Origin: a virus
Virus record (IMG/VR): IMGVR_UViG_3300023097_000002
Location: 1 to 64,000 of that record
Length of the DNA: 64,000 nt
Reading direction: 5' to 3' (one strand)
How positions within the stretch are numbered: position 1 is the stretch's first letter; the number at the start of each line of letters is the position of its first letter. This document shows positions 571-63,719 of this stretch, piece by piece. The notes under the pieces are model-generated. The model saw only the letters and a list, made by a program, of their open reading frames with translations. It was not told the origin of the DNA and did no database searches. Position numbers and translations under genes: made by a program.

Positions 571-600
571 TTGACACGGCCTAGGCCACGCTGGCACAGT
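571..600 (+). promoter_or_regulatory. Promoter of the 666 gene with GGCCTAGGCC inside the spacer
   Basis: TTGACA at 571-576 is followed by an 18-base spacer and CACAGT at 595-600. The perfect palindrome GGCCTAGGCC at 578-587 fills the spacer, so a protein bound there would block RNA polymerase. Related sites occur at 4639, 6740, 20042 and 63698. The gap 403-665 otherwise holds only the palindrome at 505 and the hairpin at 625. Confidence 0.6.
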
Positions 601-624
601 CATGCCTAACGCCCCCAAGCGAGG

Positions 625-650
625 TTTCCAAAACCGGGGGTTTTCGGAAA
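625..650 (+). promoter_or_regulatory. Leader hairpin overlapping the ribosome binding site of the 666 gene
   Basis: TTTCC plus AAAACC pairs with GGTTTT plus GGAAA around a GGG loop, with one bulged base. The 3' arm runs into the Shine-Dalgarno stretch GGAAAGGGAG, so folding could limit translation of the membrane protein. Confidence 0.4.
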
Positions 651-665
651 GGGAGAAACCCAGAC

Positions 666-1826
666 ATGGATAAGACGGAAAACAACGAGAAGGTCGCGAA
701 GGTCGACATCGACGAGGACGGTCCGAAGCGTTTCTCCGTTCTGGTTCTGATGGCGAGCATCCTCTCGATCGGCTCCCTCGCCTGGAGCACCTGGTCCTTC
801 ATCGACCTGTACAAGGTCGACGCGCTCACCATCGACAAGCTGGGCGGGCTCAGCCTGATCTCCCTCTCGGCCGCCGCGACGATGGACGTCGTCTGGAGCG
901 CGACGATGGTGGCCCAGTACCAGGGTCAGAAGCTGATGGGCAAGCTGCCCAAGGGGAAGAAGCCCTTCGACTTCCTGCCGGTCATCGGCTGGGTCGAGGC
1001 CCTGTTCGTCGCCGGTCTGCTCGGCTACCACGGAACGACGATCGGCGGCGGCGCGGCGGGGTTCGCGGCGGTCCTCCCGGTCTTCACGAAGCTCACGTGG
1101 ACGATGGCCCTGAACGGCCTGAAGGACCCGAGCGACCTGACCGACGACGAGAAGGCGCAGATGGCCGCGAAGAAGCGGAAGTCCCGCCTCACCCGGGCCG
1201 ACGCCGAGGCGACCGCCGAGCAGCACGAGGCCGACATGATCCTGAAGAACCGCGAGCACGAGGCGGCCCTGGCCGAGCAGCGGCGCCTGGCGGCCATCGA
1301 GCACGAGAAGGTCCAGGCCGAGATCGAGCGCAAGAAGCTGGAACAGCAGGCCCAGTTTGAACTGGAGAAGGCCAAGCTGGAGGGCGAGGCCGAGACCAAG
1401 CTGATGCGTCAGCAGCTCAACGCGCGACTCCAGATCGAGACCCTGCGCAGCCAGCAGGGCATCAGCCTGGAGCGGATGGACGCCGAGCAGGAACTGCGTC
1501 TGCGGGCTCCGCTGGACCTCGGCTTCAACGTCATCCAGGGGCAGGTCTCCCGGCCGCAGCTCACCAAGGGCGGCGTTTCCTTCGAGGAGGAGGACGACGC
1601 GGAGGGCATCAGCCTGGACGGCCTGAACCTGACCGACGCCGAGCGCCGGAAGGTGAACCTGGCGGCCCGCTACTACGCCGCCGACGCGGCCGAGGGCGGC
1701 ATCACCAAGGCCGCCTTCGCGAAGGCCAACCAGACGGGCGCCCCCCGGGTGACCGAGGCGACCACCGCCTTCCCGCTGGAGTGGTTCGTCGAGAACGGTC
1801 TCGCGAGCTGGATGAACCAGGGCTGA
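666..1826 (+). CDS. Membrane protein with long C-terminal coiled coil, SpdB/DUF2637-like arrangement
   Basis: 386 residues. Hydrophobic segments lie near 24-47, 61-84, 102-122 and 126-146. They are followed by a charged Ala/Glu/Lys/Arg-rich coiled coil at about 178-272 and a C-terminal domain of about 90 residues. Membrane segments followed by a large cytoplasmic coiled coil recall the Spd/DUF2637 proteins that help plasmid spread in Streptomyces mycelium, but no decisive motif is visible. It has its own promoter with a GGCCTAGGCC operator-like site and ends at a strong terminator. An anchor for another intracellular complex is the main alternative. Confidence 0.75.
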   Translation: MDKTENNEKVAKVDIDEDGPKRFSVLVLMASILSIGSLAWSTWSFIDLYKVDALTIDKLGGLSLISLSAAATMDVVWSATMVAQYQGQKLMGKLPKGKKPFDFLPVIGWVEALFVAGLLGYHGTTIGGGAAGFAAVLPVFTKLTWTMALNGLKDPSDLTDDEKAQMAAKKRKSRLTRADAEATAEQHEADMILKNREHEAALAEQRRLAAIEHEKVQAEIERKKLEQQAQFELEKAKLEGEAETKLMRQQLNARLQIETLRSQQGISLERMDAEQELRLRAPLDLGFNVIQGQVSRPQLTKGGVSFEEEDDAEGISLDGLNLTDAERRKVNLAARYYAADAAEGGITKAAFAKANQTGAPRVTEATTAFPLEWFVENGLASWMNQG

Positions 1827-1844
1827 CAAGCCCGCACGGCAGAG

Positions 1845-1880
1845 AAGCCCCCGCTCCGGCGGGGGCTTCCTGTTTTCCCC
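1845..1880 (+). terminator. Intrinsic terminator after the 666 gene
   Basis: GCCCCCGC and GCGGGGGC form a GC-rich stem with a short loop, followed by a T-rich stretch (CCTGTTTT). Confidence 0.8.
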
Positions 1881-1925
1881 AACTTGCCTGTATTCTGGCT
1901 GTGTTGACTAGGAGAGGAGAATGAC

Positions 1926-2240
1926 ATGGCGTGGCGAATCGAGGCATCCGGAGGAACCGGATCCGCCAATTACGTTGTGATCCAGCCGATGATGGACGAC
2001 GACCCGGAGAGTGAAATCCGGCATGCGCTGATCACCATCTCGCCGAAGGGCGGTCGCGAGCACCCGACGATTCCGATGCTTCCGACGGGTGCCCTCTACC
2101 GCGACCGGCTCGGCATGGCGTACCGCATCCAGGAGGCCACCATCGTCGAGACCGGAACCGACGACGGCGAACATTCCATGTGGCGTTACGAGTACCTGGT
2201 CGCCTACAGCGCGACCCTGCCGCTCCGGCCCGTCTCATGA
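1926..2240 (+). CDS. Small hypothetical protein
   Basis: 104 residues. The ATG follows AGGAGAGGAG. No membrane segment or signal peptide is seen, and the composition suggests a small soluble beta-rich domain. It begins a run of four genes joined by short overlaps (1926 to 3820): its stop overlaps the ATGATG start of the next gene. No family recognised. Confidence 0.7.
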   Translation: MAWRIEASGGTGSANYVVIQPMMDDDPESEIRHALITISPKGGREHPTIPMLPTGALYRDRLGMAYRIQEATIVETGTDDGEHSMWRYEYLVAYSATLPLRPVS

Positions 2241-2446
2241 TGGAGAAGGTCGTCACCTGGGCCATCGCCAAGGCGGTCGAGGATGTCGACGACAGTGTGA
2301 CTACGGCTGCCCTGCTGGGGGCCGCACTGGACACCGCCACGTTCTCCGCGATCGGCGTTCCGGCAACCGGTGCCGTAATCGCAGGAGCCGCCACGGGCGT
2401 GGGCCTGAACGTGGCTCGGAAGATGATGAAGGGGGAGAAGGAGTGA
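2237..2446 (+). CDS. Small hydrophobic Ala/Gly-rich protein
   Basis: 69 residues, starting at an ATGATG that overlaps the previous stop. Residues 23-60 are rich in Ala, Gly, Val and Thr with GA and GxA steps and could form one helical hairpin or membrane segment. The C-terminus is basic (ARKMMKGEKE). Its stop overlaps the GTG of the next gene, implying coupled translation with the membrane-anchored protein downstream. Function unknown. Confidence 0.65.
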   Translation: MMEKVVTWAIAKAVEDVDDSVTTAALLGAALDTATFSAIGVPATGAVIAGAATGVGLNVARKMMKGEKE

Positions 2447-3102
2447 CCGACTGGTGGAACACGTCTGCACCGCAACAGGAGGGTGAGCCGGTTCGCGTGG
2501 AACCGGCCATCGGGTGGGATCCGGAACCCGCACCGTCGATGCCCGCCCCTCCGCCCGATCCTCCAGTTCGGCAGGAAGGGCCGAATCCGCAGAAGCCGGA
2601 TCGGCGTAAGAGCCTTCTTCTCGGAGCGGCCGGTGCTGCTGCCGTAGGGGTTCTGGTCTTCACCGTCATGCCGCACGACGGCTCGACTCCGGCCGACACC
2701 CCTGGCGGATCCTCATCGTCTTCCGCTGAGCAGTTCCCCCCTGCTGCCGGTGGAGGTCCCTCCGAAGGTACGCAGGACCGGGCCGAGGCATCTCAGGCGC
2801 CCGCTCCGCAGAAGCCGAAGGTGGTCACCCTCACTGCCGTACCCGACGGCTCCGGCACGGTCGGCGCCATCGTGAAGGTGACGGTCGTGAACGACACCGA
2901 CGAGACCGTGGTGGTCATGTCGTCGATGGTGAAGGGCGACGGTCGCCCGGCCGTCATCGGTGAGGGAACGCTGGCCCCCGGCTCTCGCCGGGTCGAGCCC
3001 GGCGAGACGGCGACCGGAACCGTCGAGTTCGCCGCGAAGAAGGCCCCCGCTCAGGTGGCTCTCGTGGATCTCAGCGGGAACGTGGTGGCGGCCAGTGGCT
3101 GA
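2443..3102 (+). CDS. Membrane-anchored protein with external Ig-like domain
   Basis: 219 residues. The proline-rich cytoplasmic N-terminus (about 1-48) ends in basic KPDRRK, followed by one transmembrane helix at about 52-70. A Ser/Pro/Gly-rich linker leads to a C-terminal beta domain (about 125-219) of the FxLYD/DUF4352 type, with repeated V-x-V strands. The topology suggests a cell-surface or periplasmic-side component of the envelope module. The GTG start overlaps the preceding gene and the stop overlaps the next. Confidence 0.7.
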   Translation: MTDWWNTSAPQQEGEPVRVEPAIGWDPEPAPSMPAPPPDPPVRQEGPNPQKPDRRKSLLLGAAGAAAVGVLVFTVMPHDGSTPADTPGGSSSSSAEQFPPAAGGGPSEGTQDRAEASQAPAPQKPKVVTLTAVPDGSGTVGAIVKVTVVNDTDETVVVMSSMVKGDGRPAVIGEGTLAPGSRRVEPGETATGTVEFAAKKAPAQVALVDLSGNVVAASG

Positions 3103-3820
3103 ACCGCTGCTGCACCGCCTCCCGTCGACCGGGAAGTACGACAAGAAGTACCAGGTGCACGGTCACGACCATCTGATCGTCGAGGCGTACTACTCGGACG
3201 CCGAAGACGGCAAGCCGGAGTTCGGCTGCTGGTGGGTGATCGACACCAGATTCTCCGCACTCGACCGGCACCGCCGCCAGATCGTCTTCTCCTCCACGTA
3301 CCTCTCCGACATCCGGAGCTGGCTGAAGGCCGGAGGGGCGAAGCTGTGGGACCCCGAGAAGAGGAAGACCGACAAGGGCTGGAAGCCGATCCCCGAGGGC
3401 TGGCTTCCTGATGACGGGCGACTGGAGGCGAAGCGCCGTGTGCCCTTCAGGCCGTTCGGCGAGACGGGTTCACGGGCGCATCAGGTGGCGCGGCGGACGG
3501 AAGGGCAAGAGCAGGAGCCCAGTGACTACCCGCTCCACCCTCGCGGCCTGACGGGCAAGAAGTACGCCGTCGTCCCCGGGTGGATCACCTCTGTCAACGA
3601 CGGCCAGCGGCACTGGATCGGCTTCGGTGCGCTCACCTGGCTGTACGGAGTCAGTCCGGCCGAGTGCATCAAGGTCGACGACGAGACCGAACGAGGCTGG
3701 AACGACGACATGCGGGCGCACCTGATCTGGCTGTATCCGCAACGCAGGCACGAGGACTACGAGTCGATGAAGGAGGAGCTGGCCAGAGGCGAGGACGCCT
3801 TCAAACTGATCGAGCCCTGA
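3095..3820 (+). CDS. Hypothetical soluble protein, last gene of the 1926 operon
   Basis: 241 residues, starting at a GTG inside the end of the previous gene. It is rich in Trp, Arg and Asp with no membrane segment. Clustered aromatic patches (GCWWVIDTRFS near 50 and WIGFGALTWLYG near 178) suggest a globular alpha/beta domain. No family recognised. It converges on the GntR-type regulator, with a terminator between them. Confidence 0.65.
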   Translation: MAEPLLHRLPSTGKYDKKYQVHGHDHLIVEAYYSDAEDGKPEFGCWWVIDTRFSALDRHRRQIVFSSTYLSDIRSWLKAGGAKLWDPEKRKTDKGWKPIPEGWLPDDGRLEAKRRVPFRPFGETGSRAHQVARRTEGQEQEPSDYPLHPRGLTGKKYAVVPGWITSVNDGQRHWIGFGALTWLYGVSPAECIKVDDETERGWNDDMRAHLIWLYPQRRHEDYESMKEELARGEDAFKLIEP

Positions 3821-3827
3821 GCATGCG

Positions 3828-3861
3828 AAAGCCCCCGTTGCAACGGTGCGACGGGGGCTCT
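3828..3861. terminator. Terminator between convergent genes
   Basis: AGCCCCCGT and ACGGGGGCT form a stem between the + strand stop at 3820 and the - strand stop at 3881. It could serve both strands. Confidence 0.7.
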
Positions 3862-3880
3862 GCACATCCGCATGGGGTCC

Positions 3881-4615
3881 TCACAGGGGCACGTGGAACG
3901 AGACCGGCCGGTTGCCCTCGCAGACCTTCACCGCGACCTCGACGACCTTGCCATTGGCCAGCAGGACCCGGCGTGCCGTCTGCGTGACGATCGCGTACGC
4001 GCCCTTGAGTTCCAGAAGCTCCCGCTCCCGGTCGGTCGCCAGTCGCGACGTGATGACGGGGATCAGATCCTTCTGCCGGGATCCCATGCGCTCGGCGGCC
4101 AGCTCGCGCGAACCGCGCGGCGTGGCCTCCGCCATCGCCAGCTCGGGGGTCACGGCCGTCACCTCGGGCGGGTAGTACGAGTGCCCGGTGGCGACCGGCT
4201 TGCCGTCGATCCGGTTCAGGCGCTCCCGGTAGACGACGCCCTCACCCGGTTCGACCCCCAGCGCGGTGGCGATCTCGGCAGGGCATGGAACCGTCTCGAC
4301 CCGAAGGATCTCCGAGGTCTCCCGGGCGCCGAGCGCCCGGCCGCTTGCCGCGTAGTTCCCGACCCGGTCCTGAACCGTGGCCGTGCGGCCCGAGATGTCC
4401 GCCACGACGGGCGGCCGGTTGCCGCTGGACGGCTCCAGGACCCCTTCAGCCGTCAGCAGTTCCACGACCTTGTCGATGGTGACGCGCGACGTCTTGTGGG
4501 TCTTGGCGAGCCTGCGGCGCGACTCCAGCGGAGTACCCGGCGCCAGCTCACCAGAGGTGATCCTGGATCGGTAATGTGCCGCAATGGCACGGTACTTGGG
4601 AATCTGCTCGCTCAC
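3881..4615 (-). CDS. GntR/HutC-family transcriptional repressor with UTRA domain
   Basis: 244 residues from a GTG preceded by GAGGAG. The N-terminal winged helix (about 1-72) has the GntR pattern KYRAIAAHYRSRI, then a LESRRRLAKTHKTSR recognition region and a beta-wing. The rest (about 80-240) is a UTRA-type effector domain with VVYRERLNRIDGKPV and the GHSYYPPE segment. Related proteins (KorSA, TraR, KorA types) control transfer genes on Streptomyces plasmids. It is the only - strand gene in the left module, and GGCCTAGGCC lies 24 bases upstream of its start, suggesting autoregulation. The frame stays open upstream into 6712, but that extension is antisense to membrane genes and lacks a start signal. 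Confidence 0.88.
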   Translation of the reverse strand: MSEQIPKYRAIAAHYRSRITSGELAPGTPLESRRRLAKTHKTSRVTIDKVVELLTAEGVLEPSSGNRPPVVADISGRTATVQDRVGNYAASGRALGARETSEILRVETVPCPAEIATALGVEPGEGVVYRERLNRIDGKPVATGHSYYPPEVTAVTPELAMAEATPRGSRELAAERMGSRQKDLIPVITSRLATDRERELLELKGAYAIVTQTARRVLLANGKVVEVAVKVCEGNRPVSFHVPL

Positions 4616-4634
4616 TTTTTCTCCTCGCGTTCGC

Positions 4635-4663
4635 TTGTGGCCTAGGCCGTATTGTGTCATGCT
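4635..4663. promoter_or_regulatory. Divergent promoter region with GGCCTAGGCC
   Basis: The palindrome is at 4639-4648. On the + strand TTGTGG (4635-4640), 17 bases, then CATGCT (4658-4663) can serve the 4703 operon. On the - strand ATGACA (4660-4655) is a possible -35 for the repressor gene. One bound protein could control both directions. Confidence 0.5.
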
Positions 4664-4702
4664 GGACTCCACAACGCCAGCAGAGACCGAAGAGAGGGTG
4701 GC

Positions 4703-4867
4703 ATGGAAGGTAACGGGGAGGTTCAGGAGCCGGTTGCGTCGCATGATCGGCCCGTGCCGGAAGCGACTCTCGGGCAGCTTTCTGACTTCGCTGCCAACCA
4801 GGATATCGCCCGATTGGAGGCAACCGTAGAGGCCAACATCGGACTCGCTTCCGATGGAAAGCCGTAA
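4703..4867 (+). CDS. Small acidic hypothetical protein
   Basis: 54 residues. The ATG follows a GAGAGGGTGG ribosome site. It is soluble and rich in Glu, Ala and Asp, with no motif. First gene of the operon divergent from the GntR-type repressor and 15 bases before the membrane protein at 4883. Possibly a small regulator or chaperone for that protein; function unknown. Confidence 0.6.
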   Translation: MEGNGEVQEPVASHDRPVPEATLGQLSDFAANQDIARLEATVEANIGLASDGKP

Positions 4868-4882
4868 CACGGAAGGAGAGAC

Positions 4883-5845
4883 GTGGCGACGAAGGCAGCC
4901 ATTCCGCCGAAGCCGAAGACGGCCCCCACCGTGCACCTCAAGGGCCGGAAGCGGAAGCCGCCACGGACCCTGAAGGGCGACCTCAAGGCATTGAAGGGGA
5001 AGCTCGGCTCGGCCACCACTCGGTGGACTGAGAGTCAGGGCAAGGCGGAAGAGAAGAAGGAAAAGGTACGCCAGGAGGCCGAAAAGATCCTGGCCCCTGT
5101 CAAGGAAAAGGCCGCAGAGGAGAAGAAGCTCGCGGCCGAAGTGATGAAGCCGGTTCAGGCGGCTGCCGCCGCCATCAAGAACGGGCTGGACCCGGCCAAC
5201 GGAAAGACCCGGCCGTACGTCACTTCGTTCATGATCTCCTCGGTGATGTCGTGGGCTGTCGGACCGCAGATTCTGACCGCTCTGTACGAGCGAATCCGCT
5301 TCGGCACCTCGACCACCGGATGGGGGATTCTGAACGGCCCTGGCAGGTGGTTCAGGGACACGATCGGCATGGCGTACGAGTCGGACCGGCTCGGCAGCCT
5401 GATCTGGGCGGCGGTCATGGGGCTTGCCCCCATGTTCCTCATGTTCACCCGGAACCAGGTCGCCGGATACCTGGCCCAGAGCACGTACCGGGGGCGGATG
5501 GTCGCCTTCAGCATCACGTGGCTGACGCGCTCGGCGTGGCTGGTCCCGATCCTGTTCTTCATCGGGGTCTCGTACCCCGATGAGGTCACGGCGATCTTCG
5601 GTTCGCCGTGGACCTTCCAGATGTGGCAGTTCTGGGTCGCCGGTCTGTTCTGCATGGCGTTCTACGCGACCATGTGGACCTTCGACCGGATCGAACGACT
5701 CACCCGCGAACGGGCGGCCATGTCGGAGGAGGAGCTGGAGAAGTCCCAGAGCATGGGGCCTGGCATCTTCCACATCGTGCTCATGATCCCGCTGGCGTCG
5801 ATCGTCACGGGGATCCTGCTCTACGCACCGGGCGCCGCCTGGTGA
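4883..5845 (+). CDS. Multi-pass membrane protein with N-terminal Lys/Glu coiled coil
   Basis: 320 residues, GTG start after GGAAGGAGAG. Residues 1-40 are strongly basic and 45-95 form a Lys/Glu/Ala coiled coil. Hydrophobic segments follow near 113-135 (weak), 172-190, 208-232, 246-268 and 295-316. A basic cytoplasmic arm plus polytopic membrane domain would fit a channel or assembly platform in a conjugation- or secretion-like apparatus, but no VirB/Tra family motif is recognisable. Lies between the repressor and another membrane protein. Confidence 0.75.
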   Translation: MATKAAIPPKPKTAPTVHLKGRKRKPPRTLKGDLKALKGKLGSATTRWTESQGKAEEKKEKVRQEAEKILAPVKEKAAEEKKLAAEVMKPVQAAAAAIKNGLDPANGKTRPYVTSFMISSVMSWAVGPQILTALYERIRFGTSTTGWGILNGPGRWFRDTIGMAYESDRLGSLIWAAVMGLAPMFLMFTRNQVAGYLAQSTYRGRMVAFSITWLTRSAWLVPILFFIGVSYPDEVTAIFGSPWTFQMWQFWVAGLFCMAFYATMWTFDRIERLTRERAAMSEEELEKSQSMGPGIFHIVLMIPLASIVTGILLYAPGAAW

Positions 5846-5965
5846 TGCACAAGGGCCTTCGCTGCCGAGTGGCAGCCCGGCCGGGTTCACCCCGGCCGGA
5901 AGCCGGTTCGCATCCGGCCGAAGGTACGAAGCGGACGAACGAGCCGCTTGGAAAGGGGACGAGTC

Positions 5966-6730: not shown

Positions 6731-6760
6731 TTGTTGGCTGGCCTAGGTCAATGTTAGAGT
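6731..6760 (+). promoter_or_regulatory. Promoter of the cell-wall hydrolase operon with GGCCTAGGTC in the spacer
   Basis: TTGTTG (6731-6736), 18 bases, TAGAGT (6755-6760). GGCCTAGGTC at 6740-6749 lies within the spacer, the same arrangement as at 571. Confidence 0.6.
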
Positions 6761-6785: not shown

Positions 6786-7424
6786 ATGCCACGCAGAGCG
6801 GGCGGAGTATTCGTCGGTGTGTTTTTCGCGGTTGGAGCAGTTCAGGCCGTCACCGGTTTCATTCCGGCGGTCCCGTCTGCTGCGTCCGTCGCGGCACCCA
6901 CGAAGCAGGAGGCCAGCCAGGACTACAAGTTCACCGGCACCTCCGCACCGATCAAGCCTGGCTCGGTCCCGAAGAAGCGCTGGGAAGAGCTGATCAACAA
7001 GTGGGGCAACAAGTGCAAGACGTTGACCCCGGCACTCCTCGCGGCCCAGCTCGATCAGGAGAGCATGGGTTTCAAGCCCGAGGTCATCGACGGGCGCCTG
7101 GACTCCCCCGCCTCCGCGAAGGGGATGGCCCAGTTCATCGACGGAACCTGGGCGACCGAGGGGATCGACGCCAACGGGGACGGCAAGCGGAACAAGTACG
7201 ACCCCGAGGACGCGATCCCGTCGGCCGCGAGCCTGGACTGCAAGCTCGCGAAGGGACTCAAGGACATTCCGGGACCCACCTGGAAGAACATGCTCGCCGG
7301 GTACAACGCGGGCGGCTTCCGGGTGCAGCAGTACAACGGCGTTCCGCCGTGTTCGTTCGCCCGCTGCGAGACGTACAACTACGTGAAGATCATCGAGCAG
7401 AAGACGAGGAAGTACGAGCAGTGA
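6786..7424 (+). CDS. Secreted lytic transglycosylase-like protein
   Basis: 212 residues. A start at ATG 6786 gives a signal peptide (MPRRAGG then a hydrophobic run to about 37). The SLT/goose-lysozyme-type domain spans about 66-205. The likely catalytic Glu is E92 in AAQLDQESMGF, followed by SAKGMAQF and AGYNAGG, all typical of the fold. It would cleave peptidoglycan glycan strands outside the membrane. Conjugative elements use such enzymes (VirB1-like) to open the wall; a phage lysis role is the alternative. Its stop overlaps the GTG of the NlpC/P60 gene. Confidence 0.88.
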   Translation: MPRRAGGVFVGVFFAVGAVQAVTGFIPAVPSAASVAAPTKQEASQDYKFTGTSAPIKPGSVPKKRWEELINKWGNKCKTLTPALLAAQLDQESMGFKPEVIDGRLDSPASAKGMAQFIDGTWATEGIDANGDGKRNKYDPEDAIPSAASLDCKLAKGLKDIPGPTWKNMLAGYNAGGFRVQQYNGVPPCSFARCETYNYVKIIEQKTRKYEQ

Positions 7425-8020
7425 ACCGGATCCAGCGAGCGGCCCTGGCGGTCGCCTCCGTGGCGCTGCTCGTGCCCGTCACGTCATCCTGTGCCGCCCT
7501 CAAGGCAGCCCCGATCTCGAACGCCACGGCGAACCCCAACCCGGAGATCGAGAAGATCAACTGGTACTCGCCGGAGCAGCGCGCCAAGGAGGCGAAGCGG
7601 CAGGAGCAGGACACCAAGGTCTCCAGCTCCAGGTCCGGCGACGCGGCGGCGGTGGCCATCGCATACGCCCGTACGAAGATCGGAGTTCCCTACCTGTGGG
7701 GAGGCACCGGAACGGCCGCCGAGGGCGGTCGGTTCGACTGCTCCGGCCTGACCCAGGCGGCATACGCGAAGGCGGGAATCAAGATTCCCCGAGTCGCGAA
7801 CGACCAGTACAACACGACCAGCAACCACCCCTCCTGGGATGATCTGAAGCCGGGCGACCTGGTCTTCTTCGGCCAGAAAGGGAACTCGCGCTCGATCCAT
7901 CACGTCGGCATCTACATCGGCGGCGGCAAGATGCTGCACGCGCCACGGACCGGAACGAAGATTCGCGTCAACAACGTGCACTACATGAACGACTACTTCG
8001 GAGCGACGAGGGTGGCCTGA
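7421..8020 (+). CDS. NlpC/P60 peptidoglycan endopeptidase, probably lipid-anchored or secreted
   Basis: 199 residues. The N-terminus has a signal-like hydrophobic stretch ending VTSSC at residue 24, an imperfect lipobox. The NlpC/P60 domain occupies about 76-199, with Cys107 in RFDCSGL, His161 in HHVGIYIG and His173 in MLHAP as the catalytic triad candidates, and GVPYLWGG before them. It would cut peptide stems of peptidoglycan. Paired and translationally coupled with the transglycosylase, so the two probably open the wall together, as split versions of bifunctional conjugation hydrolases. Confidence 0.92.
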   Translation: MNRIQRAALAVASVALLVPVTSSCAALKAAPISNATANPNPEIEKINWYSPEQRAKEAKRQEQDTKVSSSRSGDAAAVAIAYARTKIGVPYLWGGTGTAAEGGRFDCSGLTQAAYAKAGIKIPRVANDQYNTTSNHPSWDDLKPGDLVFFGQKGNSRSIHHVGIYIGGGKMLHAPRTGTKIRVNNVHYMNDYFGATRVA

Positions 8021-19218: not shown

Positions 19219-20061
19219 ATGACAGCAGAAGATCAGGAAAATATTCGCACTTTCGTCGAAGGAATCGCGGTGGCCACCATCACCCGGCCATCGACCCGCG
19301 ACAAGCAACGGGCTCCCGGTCCAAGCGATCTCGCCGACAAGTGCGATCTCTGCGTGGCACGGAAGATCGCCGCCTCGCTGGGCATGGGCTCCCATACCGA
19401 ACGGGGGTTCAGCCTGAAGGCGTGGCTCGGCACGGCAGTGCACGAGAAGCTGGAGCGCGACCTGCCCAGCGTGTACGCCCACGCCGAACAGGAGATCACT
19501 GTGGACGTGGCGCAGATTCCTGGCATCGGCCTGGTGCGTGGCCACGTGGACGTGTTCCTGCCACGCAAGAAGACCCTGGTCGACTGGAAGACGACCGACC
19601 TGAAGAAGCTGAAGAAGTACCAGACCCAGGCTGGCCCCGGCGCCTACGTGCACGGGCTGACCGCGCCGGAGCGCGAGGATCTGACCAAGCTCAAGGCGAT
19701 GGACCGGGCCGGGCTGCTCACCGAGGCGGACCTGGGCCGGATGGTCATGCTGATGTCGCGCTCCGAGGAGCACTCGGGCGGCGTGCCGTCGGAGTACATG
19801 GGCCAGACGATGCTGTACCTGTACGGACTGCGGGCGATGGGGCGCGAAGCGGACTACGCTGTCCTCGCGTTCATCCCTCGGGACTCGAACAACGTGAGCG
19901 ACATCTGGGTGGCTTCCTGTGCCTACCGGCCCGACGTGGCCCAGGGCGTCATCAACAGGGCCGCCCACCTGGCCTCTCTCGTGCGCACCGGCAAGATCGG
20001 TGAGTTGACGGCCCACCCCGAGTGCTTCCCGTGCTCGATTCGGCCTAGGCTGCGCGGCTAA
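19219..20061 (+). CDS. RecB/Cas4-like PD-(D/E)XK nuclease
   Basis: 280 residues. Core motifs: GTAVHEKLE (motif I His) near 75, GHVDVF (Asp of motif II) near 115, VDWKTT (D-x-K motif III) near 126-131, and QTMLYLYGL (motif Q) near 200. Two Cys pairs, C42-x-x-C45 and C269-x-x-C272, flank the domain, as the iron-sulphur Cys do in Cas4 and AddB, though here in a 2+2 arrangement. Directly before the RecT-like gene, so it is probably the exonuclease of a phage recombination pair. Confidence 0.82.
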   Translation: MTAEDQENIRTFVEGIAVATITRPSTRDKQRAPGPSDLADKCDLCVARKIAASLGMGSHTERGFSLKAWLGTAVHEKLERDLPSVYAHAEQEITVDVAQIPGIGLVRGHVDVFLPRKKTLVDWKTTDLKKLKKYQTQAGPGAYVHGLTAPEREDLTKLKAMDRAGLLTEADLGRMVMLMSRSEEHSGGVPSEYMGQTMLYLYGLRAMGREADYAVLAFIPRDSNNVSDIWVASCAYRPDVAQGVINRAAHLASLVRTGKIGELTAHPECFPCSIRPRLRG

Positions 20062-20144: not shown

Positions 20145-21302
20145 ATGACTGAGCTTGTCCGTCGTACAACCGGCGAGGTGGATCCCGCCGAAGCAGCGCG
20201 GCTGTCGAAGTCGAAGCTGATGCCGGAGCACATCGCAGGTGATGCAGCCTCCGCCGAGTACATGATGCGCTTCGGCGCCGCCCTGGGCATCGACCCGATG
20301 TCCTCCTTCCAGCACATCTTCGTCTTCCCCGACGGCAAGGGCCGCCTGAAGGCGGGCATGAGCGCCCACCTGATGCAGGCGCTCGCCGTCGCTGCCGGTC
20401 ACACCGTGCACATCGAGGGCAACGCCGTGAAGGCGACCGCCGTCCTGGTGCGCAAGACGTCGGACGAAGACCTCCAGCGCTTCCAGCGGATGCGCGAGGA
20501 GGAGCGGCGCCAGAAGCTGGCCCGACTGGAGGACATGGACCGGCTGTACAGGATGCAGCGCGGCCAGATCCTGGAGCGCATCGAAGACATCCGAGCCCTT
20601 GCCGAGTTCGACGAGAATGCGTCCCCCGAGGAGATCGCGGCCCTGCGCAAGCAGATCGCGGCCCTGCACGGGCAGTACAACTTCGACGAGCTGCGCGAAT
20701 CCATCTCCACCACGAACTTCGATCTGTCCAAGCTGGTCCGGTTCGAGTCCGTGTGGTCGATGGCGCGAGCCAACCAGATCGGCCTCAACTCCAAGAGCAC
20801 CTGGCAGAACTACGGCCCCGAGATGCTGAAGAGCCGGGCCAAGTCGGGTGTGGTGCGAGACGGTGCGATCGACGTCATCCTCGGCGTCAAGAACATCCTC
20901 GGCGAGATGGGCCTGTCCCTCTCCGAGGACGATCACGACCATCTGGCCATGGCCTCCGCCGCCTACACCCCCGAAGAGCTGGGGGCCGAGGTGAACGAGG
21001 AAGGCGTGCCGATCCAGGGTGAGGTCATCGACGTCACCAAGGGCGGCAGCAAGAAGCAGAAGGTCATGCTCGACGCAGCCCGCAAGGCCGTCGACAAGGG
21101 GACCCCGCAGCAGCTCGCCGACTGGGCCACCCGCATGACCGGCGACGACAGCGCGTCTGTCGACGACAAGATCTCCCGCATCTACGCCATTCAGGAAGCG
21201 GCGCGAGAGGCGGGCAAGGGGGACGAGGTGGTGGTCCAGGGCGATGCCTCGGCACCGCTGAGCCTCCACCTGGAATCCATCGTCAACTCCCTCCGCAACT
21301 GA
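20145..21302 (+). CDS. RecT-like single-strand annealing protein with coiled-coil insert
   Basis: 385 residues; ATG 20145 is preferred to an upstream GTG that lies in the promoter. Residues 20-85 (AEYMMRFGAALGIDP, FVFPDGKGRLKAG, LMQALAVAAGHTV) follow the RecT/Bet pattern of phage annealing proteins. A charged helical insert at about 88-175 interrupts the domain, and helices continue to 250. The C-terminal 80 residues look like a separate small domain. It would anneal strands processed by the adjacent nuclease. Family call rests on the N-terminal pattern. Confidence 0.7.
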   Translation: MTELVRRTTGEVDPAEAARLSKSKLMPEHIAGDAASAEYMMRFGAALGIDPMSSFQHIFVFPDGKGRLKAGMSAHLMQALAVAAGHTVHIEGNAVKATAVLVRKTSDEDLQRFQRMREEERRQKLARLEDMDRLYRMQRGQILERIEDIRALAEFDENASPEEIAALRKQIAALHGQYNFDELRESISTTNFDLSKLVRFESVWSMARANQIGLNSKSTWQNYGPEMLKSRAKSGVVRDGAIDVILGVKNILGEMGLSLSEDDHDHLAMASAAYTPEELGAEVNEEGVPIQGEVIDVTKGGSKKQKVMLDAARKAVDKGTPQQLADWATRMTGDDSASVDDKISRIYAIQEAAREAGKGDEVVVQGDASAPLSLHLESIVNSLRN

Positions 21303-24988: not shown

Positions 24989-25936
24989 GTGGCCCGAAAG
25001 CCGACCGGGCGCCCGCCGGGGAGGCCGCCCGGGGACCGCTACGGAACGCCCCAGGAGCGCGTCTCCCGGGCCAGGACGCTCGTTCCCTCACTGCACCGCT
25101 TCCCACACCTCGTGAGGGCCGTGGAGCGCGTCATGGACGCCCCCAACCGGACCGTCTTCCGCAGCCCGTACAACACCAACCCGGCCGACGTCGACCTGCT
25201 CCACGTGTACAGCCCGGCGGAGAGAGGGCAGATCCTTTCCTTCACCTGGTGGGCCCACGTGAACCGCCGCAGGTGGAGCAGGCGGCGTCGGCTGGCGGCA
25301 GTGACCCTGCTCAGCCCGCTGATGCTCTTCAGCTCCTCCTTCTTCGAGGAGATGACCGAGCTGTCCTCGACGACCTGTCAGAAGTGGATGGTCCGGCCCG
25401 AGGGAATGCAGGCCACGCGAGTGCTCGGTTCGTGCGACATGCGGGTGGTGCACCTGGCCCTGGAGGCGGCGACGCGCGGCGACACCGCCTTCCGGCTGTT
25501 CGCGGCCGACATCGTCCGGGACAAGGGCGTGCCCGAGGCCATGGCCTCGCGGCTCACGGGCGTCCCGAAGGTGGTTCTCCTGGAGCCCTCGCGCGGCGTG
25601 CAGTTCACGCCGGTCGGCCCCGACCTGGACACCCTGTCGGTGCGTTCGCGTGAGGACCAGATGTTCTGGCAGGGCATGGCGAGCCAGCGGGACGTGGAGC
25701 TGGCGCCGTACGTCTACGGCCAGGAGTGGGTCCGCGATCTGTTCCCGGAAATGCTCCTGAAGGAGAACATCTTCACTGCGACTCCCGTCCCTAGAAACGG
25801 TGAGGACTGCTACCATTTGTGCATCCCCGAGCTGCCTAGGCCACATCGCGCCCGGCACCTCGGAAGCAGGTACTACGACCTGCTCTACTCGTGGGAGGAG
25901 AAGTACCTCCTGCCCGCGACCACGGGAATCGCGTGA
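24989..25936 (+). CDS. Unknown basic protein with AT-hook-like N-terminus
   Basis: 315 residues, GTG start. Residues 3-16 (RKPTGRPPGRPPGDR) contain two GRPPG elements like AT-hooks. The rest is helical with basic patches (NRRRWSRRRRLAAV near 92) and a conserved-looking C-terminus with many aromatics. No family recognised. Being between primase-helicase and DNA polymerase it may be an origin-binding or loader protein. A GCCTAGGCC at 25834 inside this gene is probably chance. Confidence 0.65.
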   Translation: MARKPTGRPPGRPPGDRYGTPQERVSRARTLVPSLHRFPHLVRAVERVMDAPNRTVFRSPYNTNPADVDLLHVYSPAERGQILSFTWWAHVNRRRWSRRRRLAAVTLLSPLMLFSSSFFEEMTELSSTTCQKWMVRPEGMQATRVLGSCDMRVVHLALEAATRGDTAFRLFAADIVRDKGVPEAMASRLTGVPKVVLLEPSRGVQFTPVGPDLDTLSVRSREDQMFWQGMASQRDVELAPYVYGQEWVRDLFPEMLLKENIFTATPVPRNGEDCYHLCIPELPRPHRARHLGSRYYDLLYSWEEKYLLPATTGIA

Positions 25937-59589: not shown

Positions 59590-59598
59590 GCGATCACC

Positions 59599-59847
59599 TT
59601 AACTGCTCGATTGACCTGGCGACCTGCGTCTGGCGGAGGGGTTTCCCGGGGATTGGCGAACCTTTTCCACGAGGGAGATTGCATTGTCGCAGGAGTCCGC
59701 CAGCTTCTTCAGTGCGCTCGTTCTGATCGGTGAATCAGGGGCGGTCATAAGGAGGTTCGCCAGTTCGGCATACTTTCGGCCGACCGGTCCGGCGTGCTGA
59801 GATCTGGTGAGGATCCTCCGGCGAGCCGCTTCGGCGTGGTCGTACAT
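59599..59847 (-). CDS. Small helical protein between terminase and portal
   Basis: 82 residues from ATG 59847, overlapping the previous stop. AEAARRRILTRSQHAGPVGRKY and a LADSCDNAISLVEKVR helix give a basic helical protein with SPGNPSARRR tail. No family recognised. It might bind DNA or the portal. Confidence 0.6.
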   Translation of the reverse strand: MYDHAEAARRRILTRSQHAGPVGRKYAELANLLMTAPDSPIRTSALKKLADSCDNAISLVEKVRQSPGNPSARRRSPGQSSS

Positions 59848-60266
59848 CACACGGATCCGTTGCCGGGTACCGGATCCTCCGGTGCGATCCGCATGAAGAA
59901 CGGCAGCACGTAGAAGTGCCCGGGGTAGGAGACCTGCATGATCTGGCGGTTGTAGAGATCGATGAACTGCTGCTGCTGGGCTCCGGACAGATGCTGGTAG
60001 TAGAACTTCGCCTGAATCTGCGCGGAGCCGTCGGACTCCGAGCGCGGCGGGTGCAGGTACGCCTTGTAGTTCTTGTCGGTCGGTCCGACCGACCATCCCT
60101 CGGCGACCAGCTTCAGGAACTTGCCCGGGTGCAGTGATCCGCAGAACGAGCAGTACGGCACCGCCTCTCCGGCGCGGCGCGGCTCCTCGCGCCACTCGTC
60201 CTGGCCCTCTGATCTGTCCCAGGGACCCATCTCCCGCATCCGGCGCGGGCAGGTCTGGATGTCCAC
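59847..60266 (-). CDS. Small zinc-finger-like protein downstream of terminase
   Basis: 139 residues; GTG 60266 follows AGGAGG. YCSFCGSLHPGKFLKLVAEGW near 37-57 is a half zinc knuckle, followed by KNYKAYLHPP and FYYQHLSGAQQQQFIDLYN. This pattern is common next to the terminase of actinophages, but the role is not known. Confidence 0.68.
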   Translation of the reverse strand: MDIQTCPRRMREMGPWDRSEGQDEWREEPRRAGEAVPYCSFCGSLHPGKFLKLVAEGWSVGPTDKNYKAYLHPPRSESDGSAQIQAKFYYQHLSGAQQQQFIDLYNRQIMQVSYPGHFYVLPFFMRIAPEDPVPGNGSV

Positions 60267-60329
60267 TTGTCCTCCTTGAGTTCCATGCACATGGTGCTCC
60301 TGGAACTACAGCTCACTTTGAGGATTCCG

Positions 60330-62699
60330 TCAGTAGGGTGAGATCATTTCCTCCTCCCAGTAGTCGTTGTCCTCGATGAGGGAGCTGGCCATCGTCTCGG
60401 CCGTCTCGGTCAGAACATCACCCTGGCGAAGACCCTCGGCCACCGGGGCGACCGCGTACGCGATGGCGTCGGCGTAGTCGGGGGACTTGCCGTACTCCTT
60501 GCGCATCTCCTCCTTGGAGGCGATGAGCAGGCGGCCGTTCTTGATCGAGTAGAAGACCATCTTCAGGTCGTCGGCGATCAGCTCGTCAGGGTCGATGAAC
60601 TTCGCCGAGCCGTTGCGCATCTTCTGGCGAAGCTGCTCGAACCAGTAGGCACGGGCGTTGTAGAAGCCGTAGACCGAACCACCGACATCCGCCGGAGGGG
60701 CCGCCGATCCGTGCATCTCGTAGACGGTGAACCACGGATCCGGCAGCAGCGTCGCACGGGCGTTCAGGGTGTCGACGACACCGGCACCGAGACCAACGGC
60801 GTCGACCCGGATCTCCACCCAGGGCGCCTTGCGCTCCTCCTTCAGGCGTTCGGCGATCTGGAGTACCTTGTGGGCCGAGGACACCGTGTCGGTCCCTGAC
60901 CAGGATTCCTCGATCTGCGCGGTCACGCCGGAGTACGAAGCGACCACCGTCTTGTCAGCACCGAAGCGCGCGACGTCGACACCCAGGCGCAGCACCGAGT
61001 ACAGCGAAGGCTTCGGAGTCTCGTCGATCGCGTCGGCCACCAGCGACGGGGCGAACAGCGACGACATGCTCTGCTCGGGGAATTTGGCCAGCACCTTCGC
61101 GATGTAGCGCGGGTCCTTCTCGCCCCAGTCGTCGAGGCGTTCCTGCACCCAGTCACGTGAGACGAGGACTTCGTTCAGGAGCTTGGGCACCGGCTCGCCC
61201 GTGAAGTTCGGAGTGCTCGACGCGGGGATCGAGATCCGATTCCACAGGTGCGCGGTCTTCGACTCCATGAAGTTCTTGCCGAAGTCCGTGTTCCGGTCGT
61301 CGGGGTTCCCGATGGCCAGGATGCGGCAGCCGACGTTCGTGGTGATGGCCTCGACGCCGGTCCAGATCTCCTCGGGAATGCCGCACGCCTCATCCAGGAG
61401 GGCCAGTACGTACCGGCGGTGAATACCGTGGAAGGAGTGGCGGTCGCCCTTGGCGGGCTTTCGGCCGAAGCCGACGATCTGCCCGTCGCCCAGCTTCCAC
61501 TCATCCGCCTGCGTCACGCGGCCCGGCATCGGATACTCGCCACGCAAGGCGTTCGAGTGGTGCTTGCGGATCTCCTCCCAGAGGATCTTGTTGACCTGCG
61601 CGTAGGTCGGTGCGGTCGAGACGACGATCGCCTGGCCCGGGGGCTTCGTCGAGACCCACCAGCAGGCCAGCACCGAAGCGATCATCGAGTTGTGGGTGGG
61701 AATCCCGCGCTCGCCGCAGAGGTACAGGTGGTCGGGCGAGTCGACCTGGATGCACTGCACGTCCCGCTCACCCACCGGCTTCACGGAGGTGATGCGCCAG
61801 CCGTCATCACCCCAGGACCCTTGCGTCAGCAGCAGATGCGACAGGGCGATGGCCCGCTGGTTGGCATCCGGAAGAAGGGTCGGAGCGTGAGATCCCATCA
61901 GGGCCAGGTGCCGCATCGTGATGCCGTACTGCCGCTCGCGCCGGTAGATCGTCTGAACGCCCGCCTCGCGCATCCGGTCCCTGACCGAGAAGATCTCCTC
62001 CGGCTCACCCTGGCGCGTCTTCCAGAGCAGCGCGGTGCGCCCGTGGGGATCGAGTCCGCCGCGCTCGGCCAGCAGTGCCTGCATCGCTTCGTCGGCCGTC
62101 CACGCGAGTCCGCGCGGAATGATCTCCGGTGCCCGCCCGGGAACGACGACCGTGCCGGGCCGCAGCTTGGCGATCTGCTTGGTGGTCAGGGTCTTCGCCT
62201 TGTGCATCCACAACCCGGTCTCCACCGGTACGCCCGCCCGGTCGGACTTGAGCTGGATGTCGGCCAGGCCCTGAAGGTCGAGCACTGGCCACAGGTGATC
62301 GGCCGAGGCGATGATCTCCTCGCAGGCGCCGCCCCTCTCCAGACGGACGACGTAACTCTCGGCCTTGTGCTCGCCCGTGACGGCCACCACCTCGACCGGC
62401 GAGCCATCGGAGCCCAGCACCTTCATGCCCTCGGTGATCTCACCCATCCTCACCGGGCCCGACGGGGTGTGAACCAGTTCGTCCAGCCCGAGCGCCTTGC
62501 CGGTGCCGTGACAGGAGGCGACGACCGTGCGCTTGTTCCGGATGAGAGAGGAGCAGATTTCCTGCTGCTTGCTCCACAGGTGGACGCCGAGAACGTCCCT
62601 GGCCCACCCCACCGGATCGTTGACCCATCCGGCCTGCCGCGCCTGATTGCGGAAGTATGCCTCCGCCTCGGCGGCGATCCGCTCTTCGTGTGAGGACAT
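60330..62699 (-). CDS. terL: Terminase large subunit interrupted by an intein
   Basis: 789 residues before splicing, about 520 after removal of a 269-residue intein. ATG 62699 follows GAAAGGAACGGC. The ATPase half has SCHGTGK then S after the intein (Walker A), and LALLDEACG (Walker B). The nuclease half has GVDVARFGADKT, DAVGLGAG and SPDYADAIAYA, giving the RNase H-type Asp residues. It cuts and pumps DNA into the head. The intein splits the Walker A motif between Lys and Ser, so activity depends on splicing. Confidence 0.94.
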   Translation of the reverse strand: MSSHEERIAAEAEAYFRNQARQAGWVNDPVGWARDVLGVHLWSKQQEICSSLIRNKRTVVASCHGTGKALGLDELVHTPSGPVRMGEITEGMKVLGSDGSPVEVVAVTGEHKAESYVVRLERGGACEEIIASADHLWPVLDLQGLADIQLKSDRAGVPVETGLWMHKAKTLTTKQIAKLRPGTVVVPGRAPEIIPRGLAWTADEAMQALLAERGGLDPHGRTALLWKTRQGEPEEIFSVRDRMREAGVQTIYRRERQYGITMRHLALMGSHAPTLLPDANQRAIALSHLLLTQGSWGDDGWRITSVKPVGERDVQCIQVDSPDHLYLCGERGIPTHNSMIASVLACWWVSTKPPGQAIVVSTAPTYAQVNKILWEEIRKHHSNALRGEYPMPGRVTQADEWKLGDGQIVGFGRKPAKGDRHSFHGIHRRYVLALLDEACGIPEEIWTGVEAITTNVGCRILAIGNPDDRNTDFGKNFMESKTAHLWNRISIPASSTPNFTGEPVPKLLNEVLVSRDWVQERLDDWGEKDPRYIAKVLAKFPEQSMSSLFAPSLVADAIDETPKPSLYSVLRLGVDVARFGADKTVVASYSGVTAQIEESWSGTDTVSSAHKVLQIAERLKEERKAPWVEIRVDAVGLGAGVVDTLNARATLLPDPWFTVYEMHGSAAPPADVGGSVYGFYNARAYWFEQLRQKMRNGSAKFIDPDELIADDLKMVFYSIKNGRLLIASKEEMRKEYGKSPDYADAIAYAVAPVAEGLRQGDVLTETAETMASSLIEDNDYWEEEMISPY
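61689..62495 (-). other. Class 3-type intein within terminase
   Basis: 269 residues inserted after the Walker A Lys. The first residue is Ala (ALGLDELVHT), not Cys or Ser. Block B has ADHLWPV (Trp), block F VQCIQVDSPDHLYL (Cys) and block G IPTHN then Ser, giving the Trp-Cys-Thr triplet that defines class 3 inteins. No LAGLIDADG motifs are seen, though about 130 residues between the blocks may be a degenerate endonuclease. Confidence 0.85.
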
Positions 62700-62823
62700 G
62701 CCGTTCCTTTCTGCTGCGACGCGTACAGCATTCCTCACCGGGGAACATTTTCGGTAACCTTGTGATGCCCCACCCGCGCAGCACTGGGCAGCGCGGACTC
62801 CACTTCCTGGGGCTGAGACTCAC

Positions 62824-62851
62824 GGGGACCCGGCCAACTGGCCGGGTCCCC
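62824..62851. terminator. GC-rich hairpin between divergent genes
   Basis: GGGGACCCGGCCA and TGGCCGGGTCCCC form a 13-bp stem. It lies between the terminase start and the 62872 gene. The gap 62700-62871 shows no further gene; possible - strand promoter elements are weak. Confidence 0.5.
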
Positions 62852-62871
62852 TTCCTCATGGGGAGGCAAGG

Positions 62872-63039
62872 ATGGCTTCTGAACTGGGACGTGTGGCCTA
62901 TGAGGCATACGGAGAAAGCGTCGGCTGGACCACGTTCTCGGGCACTCGGATGCCCACATGGGAAGAGCAGAATGAACGGCTGAAGCAGGCATGGAACTCG
63001 GCCGCCGCAGCCGTGGAAGCGCGAGTGCGCGAAGAGTAG
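62872..63039 (+). CDS. Small actinophage protein
   Basis: 55 residues, ATG after GGGGAGGCAAGG. AYEAYGESVGWTTFSGTRMPTW matches a widespread small actinophage pattern (AY-x5-GW-x-x-FSG-x-x-x-P-x-W), followed by a helix rich in Ala. Role unknown. It lies just upstream and divergent from terminase. Confidence 0.68.
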   Translation: MASELGRVAYEAYGESVGWTTFSGTRMPTWEEQNERLKQAWNSAAAAVEARVREE

Positions 63040-63117
63040 CGAGTTCCCTGAACTTCCCGCCCCCAATCGGACTTTCCTTTTGCGGCACTCTGTGTCATCC
63101 TCAAAAACATGAGGAAT

Positions 63118-63480
63118 ATGTACCCGAAACCATGTGGCGTCTGCCAGGGACGGGTGCCAGCCGGAGAGGGCAACGTCCAGGGGTCGCACGCATCCGGCTG
63201 GACCGTCACGCATGACGTCTGCCCGCGCGAATCGGTCCGTCACGGCCACGCCCAGGCGTACGCGCGCCGGGTGATGGGCGTGCTGCGCCGCAAGGAGTCC
63301 ACCGCCAACGACATCTCCGAGGCCCTGGCCGGTCTCGCCGCCCTCATGCGCACGGGATGGACCAGCCGTGAGGGGTGCGAGAAGGTCATCCTCCGGGCCC
63401 CGGCGTTCAGTGATCTGGATCGCCTGGAAGTCGAGGAGATCCTGAACCGGTCCCTCTCCGAGGAAGGAACGCGCTGCTAG
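63118..63480 (+). CDS. Small protein with N-terminal Cys/His cluster
   Basis: 120 residues from ATG 63118 (ATG 63109 is an alternative) after GAGGA. PKPCGVCQGRVPAGEG, then VTHDVCPRE give a probable zinc knuckle. The rest is helical (ISEALAGLAALMR, LDRLEVEEILNRSL). Overlaps the convergent - strand gene by four bases at its stop. Confidence 0.6.
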   Translation: MYPKPCGVCQGRVPAGEGNVQGSHASGWTVTHDVCPRESVRHGHAQAYARRVMGVLRRKESTANDISEALAGLAALMRTGWTSREGCEKVILRAPAFSDLDRLEVEEILNRSLSEEGTRC

Positions 63481-63668
63481 TCACGCAGCCCAAGAGCATC
63501 GAGAAGTTCAGAGAGGGCGGCCTTCTGGTCGCCCTCTTCTGCTTCTCCGCGCAGTGCGTACGACGCCATGTTCAGCATCGCTCGACGACGGCAGGGCTGG
63601 CACTGCCCGCAGGGTACGGCACCGCAGGTTCGGGGAATGGTGATCGTGCTGACCGGGGCGATATCCAT
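63477..63668 (-). CDS. Small Cys-rich protein
   Basis: 63 residues, ATG after AAAGAGAGAAACC. CGAVPCGQCQPCRRR near 15-29 is a four-Cys zinc cluster, followed by a helical C-terminus. It is divergent from the secreted-protein gene across the GGCCTAGGTC site. Function unknown. Confidence 0.6.
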   Translation of the reverse strand: MDIAPVSTITIPRTCGAVPCGQCQPCRRRAMLNMASYALRGEAEEGDQKAALSELLDALGLRD

Positions 63669-63689
63669 GGTTTCTCTCTTTCGTGGAAC

Positions 63690-63719
63690 TTGAATTTGGC
63701 CTAGGTCATGTGGTCTGAT
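63690..63719 (+). promoter_or_regulatory. Promoter of the secreted-protein gene with GGCCTAGGTC in the spacer
   Basis: TTGAAT (63690-63695), 18 bases, TCTGAT (63714-63719); GGCCTAGGTC at 63698-63707 inside the spacer, as at 571 and 6731. Confidence 0.55.

Follow-up and report, generated by a model that had tools for sequence, protein, structure and literature searches.

An array of putative palindromic operators and a candidate GntR/UTRA repressor in Frankenweenie-like Streptomyces phages

The stretch of DNA analysed here (hereafter the window) comprises bases 1–64,000 of the 72,269-base IMG/VR virus record IMGVR_UViG_3300023097_000002. It carries the gene set of a large siphophage (i.e. terminase, portal, capsid/protease, tape measure, primase and DNA polymerase), and sequence comparison identifies it as a Streptomyces BM-cluster-like siphophage whose closest named relative is the 200-kb phage Frankenweenie (98.7% identity between the two primases). 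The nearest named relatives are all Streptomyces phages (Frankenweenie, JustBecause, Kela, Quantum, Kradal, EhyElimayoE and Satis); Frankenweenie, JustBecause and Satis are placed in cluster BM. One IMG/VR record (G001) encodes a regulator identical to that of the window and is probably nearly the same phage. In Frankenweenie, 287 of 351 genes have no known function (PMC10652959). Our subject is a palindrome, GGCCTAGGYC, that recurs at promoters of this phage group, together with a GntR/UTRA regulator encoded beside one copy. We propose, with a probability of roughly 85%, that the palindrome is the operator of this phage-encoded protein, which would act as a repressor.

Exact GGCCTAGGYC gives six strand-matches at four places in the window, against a mean of 0.31 in shuffled sequences, none of 100 of which reached six. 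The first-pass annotation had named five copies as one regulon joining envelope genes, a RecT-like gene and a secreted-protein gene. Four of them are exact (578–587, 4639–4648, 6740–6749 and 63698–63707), but the copy at 20042–20051 (GGCCTAGGCT) has one mismatch; it stands 93 nt before the start of the RecT-like gene, within the 3′ end of a called gene (19354–20061). Inspection of the sequence bears out placement in an 18-base promoter spacer at 578 (TTGACA-N18-CACAGT), 6740 (TTGTTG-N18-TAGAGT) and 63698 (TTGAAT-N18-TCTGAT), with hexamers chosen by eye and in no case a perfect consensus. Likewise, the site at 4639 does lie between the GntR/UTRA gene (start at 4615, minus strand) and a plus-strand operon, and the sole further CCTAGG in the window is the coding copy at 25835. 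The hexamer CCTAGG itself is unremarkable in number (6 observed, 6.81 expected), so that the signal lies in the extended 12-base palindrome and its placement. All four exact sites of the record are not fully coding, with 11.8% of the record intergenic by our own gene calls (chance about 2e-4), and the rest of the 72-kb record past the window holds no further copy.

Table 1. Palindromic sites of the window and the genes beside them (window coordinates).
Feature	Position	Strand	Remarks
Putative operator GGCCTAGGCC	578..587	.	In −35/−10 spacer of promoter for the 666–1826 membrane protein
Predicted membrane protein, Frankenweenie gp114 orthologue	666..1826	+	Operator 78 nt upstream; 'membrane protein' is the deposited annotation
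GntR/UTRA (HutC-subfamily) regulator, 244 aa, proposed operator binder	3881..4615	-	Pfam, arginine alignment
Putative operator GGCCTAGGCC	4639..4648	.	Between regulator gene and divergent operon; proposed autorepression site
Predicted membrane protein, Frankenweenie gp107 orthologue, divergent from regulator	4883..5845	+	
Putative operator GGCCTAGGTC	6740..6749	.	In promoter of cell-wall hydrolase operon
SLT-domain transglycosylase, first gene after operator 6740	6819..7424	+	Pfam SLT 37.1 bits, above cut-off; PHROG endolysin
Tail-lysin-like gene after transglycosylase	7421..8020	+	PHROG 329 and others; Frankenweenie annotation 'hydrolase'
Degenerate putative operator GGCCTAGGCT before RecT-like gene	20042..20051	.	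Inside 3′ end of exonuclease-like gene
RecT-like single-strand annealing protein	20145..21302	+	PHROG 4171, E 2.3e-8
Putative operator GGCCTAGGTC	63698..63707	.	In promoter spacer of secreted-protein gene
Small secreted protein (start), Frankenweenie gp24 orthologue	63761..64000	+	Signal peptide judged by eye; extends beyond window end

We then counted the palindrome in whole relatives. GGCCTAGGYC occurs 15 times in each of seven genomes (Frankenweenie, JustBecause, Satis and G001–G004), 31 times in G005, 23 times in a phage contig (Scaffold14) of the Streptomyces isolate NEAU-Y11 and 22 times in G400. There are zero copies in two large relatives (G401 and G403) and zero in ZL12 and pMLP1. Simulation of three genomes (Markov orders 1, 3 and 5, with 12 simulations each) gave means of 0.1 to 1.7 copies in Frankenweenie and Satis and 0.3 to 4.4 in G005. 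The proposed check of intergenic against coding DNA came out in favour of the array when run on these relatives: by our own codon-usage caller (333 genes in Frankenweenie, which has 351 annotated proteins; 200,000 of its 200,048 bases were taken in), all 15 Frankenweenie sites are not fully coding, in a genome that is 13.7% intergenic. The same holds for 15 of 15 sites in JustBecause, Satis, G001, G003 and G004, 14 of 15 in G002, 29 of 31 in G005, 23 of 23 in the NEAU-Y11 contig and 22 of 22 in G400. A tally over nine records, which counts both the window's record and the near-identical G001, gives 137 of 140 sites, with 12–18% of the DNA intergenic. Moreover, GGCCTAGGCC ranks first among intergenic 10-base palindromes in Frankenweenie, Satis and G005, and CCTAGG is the 6-base palindrome with the strongest intergenic bias in the same three. 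Among fragment contigs, sites occur without a regulator in the pieces of G406 and G409, sites with just a weak partial regulator match in G402, and neither sites nor regulator in G407, G408 and G404.

The putative operator is 12 bp long (YGRCCTAGGYCR). Over 120 intergenic sites from six genomes, the outer flank is a pyrimidine in 239 of 240 half-sites, the exception being the RecT site of G005. YGRCCTAGGYCR occurs 4, 15, 15, 15, 29, 15, 15, 15, 15, 23 and 23 times in the array-bearing records and not at all in ZL12, pMLP1, G401 and G403; a flank-swapped control of the 12-mer is absent from all 15 records, and other palindromes of the same form reach counts of 0–3. For promoter positions, 151 sites from eight genomes were oriented to the next gene and near-identical ones grouped, after removal of those located within called genes or with no gene start in the following 300 nt. 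In the resulting 65 groups, which are not wholly independent and in which some sites (above all those of G002) are possibly misoriented, TANNNT starts 6–7 bases before the site 15 times, 12–16 bases after the site's first base 13 times, and at any other offset at most twice. Where a −10 element is recognizable, the putative operator lies either in the −35/−10 spacer or directly after the −10, i.e. under polymerase in both cases, and this position argues for repression.

A comparison of column identity among sites was dropped as evidence because its pairs had been picked among sites already matching the motif, and was replaced by a comparison unconditioned on the motif. For Frankenweenie genes that follow an exact site, orthologues were taken without regard to the motif and an exact site was sought within 300 nt upstream. 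It was kept by 15 of 15 orthologues in G001 and in G003, 13 of 14 in JustBecause and in G004, 13 of 13 in Satis, 10 of 11 in G005 and 9 of 11 in NEAU-Y11. By comparison, the exact survival of other 10-mers from the same upstream regions was 50% in G001, 63% in G003, 14.9% in JustBecause, 14% in G004, 12.6% in Satis, 2.3% in G005 and 1.9% in NEAU-Y11. Orthologues of non-operator genes had a site in 0 of 290 cases in G001, 0 of 281 in G003, 0 of 257 in JustBecause, 0 of 260 in G004, 0 of 248 in Satis, 8 of 164 in G005 and 6 of 131 in NEAU-Y11. With one-mismatch forms admitted, Frankenweenie and NEAU-Y11 share an operator on 10 orthologues (4 + 4 in one phage only, 124 in neither; p 1.3e-9), and Frankenweenie and G005 on 12 (5 and 2 in one only, 156 in neither; p 4.5e-13).

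The comparison therefore supports a shared regulon, as the first-pass annotation had it, and one wider than the genes it named, made up mostly of small genes of unknown function. In our regulon table, which also takes in four one-mismatch site forms, thirteen genes bear the operator in all six Frankenweenie-like genomes tabulated, and eight of them do so in G005 and NEAU-Y11 as well (i.e. the genes for the secreted protein, the RecT-like protein, the transglycosylase, the regulator, a membrane protein, the small helix–turn–helix (HTH) protein gp145 and two unknowns). A site precedes the orthologue of the 666–1826 gene in eight of eight other records tabulated, and the G005 version of the RecT-gene site is GGCCTAGGCC with an off-consensus flank. 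One site lies ∼130 nt before a tRNA-Ile gene, and there is none in the terminase-to-tail block of Frankenweenie (12291–46822). The product of gp145 (L007 39809–40117) is a small protein with weak HTH matches, and the operator stands 14–18 nt before its gene in all eight large genomes tabulated; it could perhaps be a second-tier regulator.

Some further elements were noted beside the array. The coding copy at 25833 (CCTAGG at 25835) was rejected as an operator and taken as chance because it is not kept in two relatives: none is listed there in Satis and a changed coding form, CCCCTAGGTG, is found in G005 (compared by order, not aligned). Two other conserved CCTAGG elements were set aside as not fitting the operator. 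One is a hairpin, seen by eye, in the tRNA cluster of three phages (L008 35686–35715, i.e. Frankenweenie 135686–135715; JustBecause 123777; Satis 126595); the probable ribosome-binding site of the following gene falls within the 3′ arm of this hairpin. The other is a repeat of GCCCTAGGGY, or a near form, which stands close to stop codons in the right arm together with a hairpin (again by eye) and CCGGGAGTG (L009 31291, 32596 and 43626, i.e. Frankenweenie 181291, 182596 and 193626; also in JustBecause, Satis and G005); it is possibly a structured RNA or terminator. At 5855–5927, after the membrane gene that diverges from the regulator and is putatively operator-controlled, the window has a tRNA of just 73 bases with anticodon UCA, called tRNA-SeC. 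The same UCA-type tRNA lies beside the same membrane gene in Frankenweenie, and it may read UGA.

The regulator matches both of its Pfam families above their cut-offs (GntR PF00392, 30.4 bits against 27; UTRA PF07702, 62.7 bits against 23.8). Its AlphaFold model (whole-chain predicted local distance difference test score, pLDDT, 55) is good for the DNA-binding domain alone and barely informs the UTRA fold; the N-terminal part of the model superposes on AraR (5d4r_B: Z 12.3, root-mean-square deviation 1.6, 71 aligned) and YvoA (4u0y_D: Z 11.6, root-mean-square deviation 1.9, 70 aligned). An exact site precedes the regulator gene in all 11 array records measured, at 23 nt in nine of them, 22 nt in NEAU-Y11 and 32 nt in G400. 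The ratio of nonsynonymous to synonymous substitution rates (dN/dS) of the gene is 0.09–0.27 among six genomes, i.e. it is under purifying selection.

The likely mode of recognition can be compared with that of known relatives. In NagR, the two guanines of each half-site are read by Arg38 and Arg48, and six bases separate the half-sites (PMC4333415). Aligned with these residues in the phage regulator are Arg34 and Arg44, which the model places at the starts of the two HTH helices; the site pattern GG-N6-CC has the half-site spacing of dre sites. The DasR consensus is A(G/C)TGGTCTAGACCA(G/C)T (PMC4398421); the putative phage operator departs from the DasR core solely at position 3 of each half (C/G, not T/A). 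Both arginines are kept in eight of eight aligned array-bearing orthologues, down to 49% identity. In the array-less G401, the recognition helix of the regulator copy (L202 14313–15047) is altered and the second arginine is gone, and no operator of its own was found for this diverged copy; no GntR/UTRA copy was found in the array-less G403, and the copies of ZL12 and pMLP1 lack both arginines.

Among 29 actinobacterial homologues with 38–44% identity and a different helix, none has GGCCTAGGYC in its 4–7-kb locus, but 11 have GTAGCGCTAC, allowing one mismatch, in the 300 nt upstream (1.7% for random stretches); two of these 11 come from one genome, and the distant L132 (23% identity) was omitted from the set. 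GTAGCGCTAC palindromes lie upstream of related Streptomyces GntR/UTRA genes (L107, L108, L113, L121 and L131), and GTAGCGCTAC is likely the operator of a sister GntR/UTRA group. Taken together, the site in its own promoter, the two domains, the arginines, the missing array in relatives without this protein or its second arginine, the DasR/NagR-like operator and the contrast with the homologues make the GntR/UTRA protein the best candidate binder, as the first-pass annotation had supposed.

The relatives differ in genes related to lysogeny and maintenance. Three complete genomes (W01–W03), G001, G003 and G004 contain the regulator, and no tyrosine integrase or ParA was found in them. Scaffold14 of NEAU-Y11, a 185,382-base contig in the assembly of a Streptomyces sp. 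isolate with 145 of 273 called genes matching Frankenweenie, contains a tyrosine recombinase, and ParA lies directly behind the regulator gene (L133–L142). G005, G399 and G400 also combine recombinase, ParA, regulator and array, and the recombinases of NEAU-Y11 and G005 (58% identity) are both near the same metalloprotease gene. The ends of the NEAU-Y11 contig overlap by 127 nt, i.e. it is a circular assembly. Frankenweenie, JustBecause and Satis have terminal repeats of about 1 kb, and since a terminally repeated linear phage genome could assemble as circular alike, the overlap is no proof of a plasmid; the contig is possibly a phage-plasmid. A search for ParB_N (PF02195) in nine phage records and the NEAU-Y11 phage contig found none; the gene behind ParA has no family match. 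A common chromosomal prophage was rejected: a capsid-protein search of 392 Streptomyces genomes matched the NEAU-Y11 assembly alone, which weighs against common stable lysogeny.

On the observed sites, their positions, their conservation and their co-occurrence with the protein, we build the following model of the dimer, its binding, the repression, the ligand and the phage lifestyle. A GntR/UTRA dimer would bind YGRCCTAGGYCR at about 15 promoters, with the two half-sites read by Arg34 and Arg44, and would block RNA polymerase because the site overlaps the −35/−10 spacer or the bases just after the −10. The regulator would repress its own gene and, in one stroke, those of membrane and secreted proteins, cell-wall hydrolases, probably the RecT-like protein, and mostly unknown small genes, while the terminase-to-tail block would stay outside the repression. 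Binding of a small ligand to the UTRA domain would take the repressor off the DNA.

Several points weigh against this model. More than half of the 65 site groups lack TANNNT at either preferred offset, so that the promoter picture is based on part of the sites, and the RecT-gene site is degenerate in most genomes. The large array-less relatives are only two, both possibly incomplete, and 31 Frankenweenie genes, among them the HTH gene gp164, occur in all eight array genomes and in neither array-less one; the regulator itself does not strictly fit this pattern, G401 having a diverged copy. In the array-bearing proteins the wing is shortened, so that the NagR wing glycine seems to be missing, and the 12-base DasR core TGGTCTAGACCA has no copy in the 15 records, i.e. 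the operator differs from the known site at position 3. The Frankenweenie paper reports 'no integrase or repressor' and judges a temperate life unlikely (PMC10652959). Finally, an operator lies 849 nt before the recombinase gene in G005, and ParA lies behind the regulator in NEAU-Y11, so that maintenance genes are not cleanly outside the regulon.

The distribution of gp164 suggests that another phage DNA-binding protein could read the operator, and in G005 and NEAU-Y11 the operator does precede the orthologue of gp163, its neighbour, in the stretch towards which gp164 is turned; the close spacing of the site to gp145 makes that small HTH protein a second candidate of this kind. However, the Frankenweenie group shows no operator at the start of gp164 itself, no Pfam family matches the NEAU-Y11 orthologue of gp164, a gp145 homologue is present in the array-less G403, and neither protein would explain the likeness of the site to DasR/NagR operators or the arginine pattern, so we regard such a binder as unlikely. 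We consider it still more improbable that a host regulator such as DasR reads the sites and ties a phage without its own binder into host metabolism. The site does differ from the DasR core by one base per half (PMC4398421). We nevertheless rejected host DasR because its core is absent, because the motif is concentrated in the phage contig (∼96 times denser in the NEAU-Y11 assembly, with 23 sites in the contig and 12 in the remaining about 9.3 Mb) and because the array follows the phage protein: array-less relatives lack that protein or its second arginine, which counts against a host binder. Equally improbable, in our view, is that the sites are promoter or activator elements; they are located at promoters and conserved with them, but they are palindromes, and relative to the −10 they occupy two clearly separate positions, in the spacer or directly downstream; activator sites as a rule have to stand upstream at a fixed distance.

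A more serious alternative keeps the same operator and binder but sees in them nothing more than a timing device that switches early genes off in an obligately lytic phage, unconnected with any prophage state. It would agree with the lack of tyrosine integrase and ParA in the six Frankenweenie-like genomes (three complete, three IMG/VR contigs of 187–192 kb), with the authors' description of Frankenweenie as non-temperate (PMC10652959) and with the capsid gene being found in just one of 392 Streptomyces genomes. We hold it possible but doubtful, as four array-bearing relatives carry both tyrosine recombinase and ParA, one of them as a circular contig in an isolate's assembly. These relatives give indirect support to the dormant plasmid or prophage state suggested in the first-pass annotation, but the window's closest relatives have neither gene.

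We therefore lean, with limited confidence, towards a prophage origin of the array. Because the array is common to temperate-looking relatives (ParA, tyrosine recombinase), its original role would most likely have been the silencing of lytic and host-takeover genes during prophage life; where ParA and recombinase are missing, as in the closest relatives of the window, it may persist under selection as a brake or immunity function. The best reading appears to be that array and regulator form a master repression system of a phage family that is temperate or once was, and that phages without ParA and recombinase may use the regulator in the lytic cycle or in superinfection exclusion, or may still be capable of persistence. 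A bolder version, to which we give slightly less than even odds, is a lysogeny (immunity) system of roughly 170–260-kb Streptomyces phages that live, or once lived, as partitioned phage-plasmids. In such a system a ligand-sensing DasR-type HutC repressor with a new operator specificity would hold 15–30 promoters at once and a host metabolite would decide between dormancy and lysis, and isolates catalogued as non-temperate would keep the switch without the partition and recombinase genes.

The operator array provides a regulatory map for a phage cluster of mostly unknown genes, and array and regulator contradict the printed statement that Frankenweenie has no repressor (PMC10652959). If the model is true, the genes behind these operators are those that have to be switched off for phage and host to coexist, and if a UTRA ligand controls the switch, dormancy of Streptomyces phages would depend on a host metabolite. 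A single phage family in which the recognition helix has changed and the operators have been lost is also natural material for studying GntR specificity.

Parts of this system resemble known ones. Cluster A mycobacteriophages (L5, TipsytheTRex) likewise use one repressor with more than 20 short scattered sites in promoters and short intergenic spaces, but their stoperators are asymmetric, oriented and bound by a monomer with two DNA-binding domains (PMC9283540), whereas the sites here are palindromes at promoters and the candidate binder belongs to the GntR/UTRA type. Another parallel is KorSA of pSAM2, with its homologue SCO3932, a GntR/HutC-type repressor of a Streptomyces mobile element that binds its own promoter; two target promoters are described for KorSA (own and pra; PMC8584621), and pSAM2 is an integrative conjugative element, not a phage. 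Streptomyces phage ZL12 carries a GntR-like protein 41% identical to the window regulator, but this protein lacks both arginines and the ZL12 genome has no copy of the motif. The closest likeness in recognition is to DasR (Streptomyces coelicolor) and NagR (= YvoA, Bacillus subtilis), GntR-HutC regulators of dre sites that have the same two domains, the same two arginines in the same places and a palindrome with guanine-bearing half-sites six bases apart. DasR also has many targets, tRNA genes included (PMC4398421), and the phage array has one site before a tRNA gene; the phage system differs in the C/G at position 3 of each half, the shortened wing and its being phage-encoded. Phage repressors with many operators and HutC regulators are both already known. 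Among the literature matches listed, in the parts available, none describes a GntR repressor array for phages of this group, and as far as this search goes their combination, the operator specificity and the conflict with the printed 'no repressor' are new.

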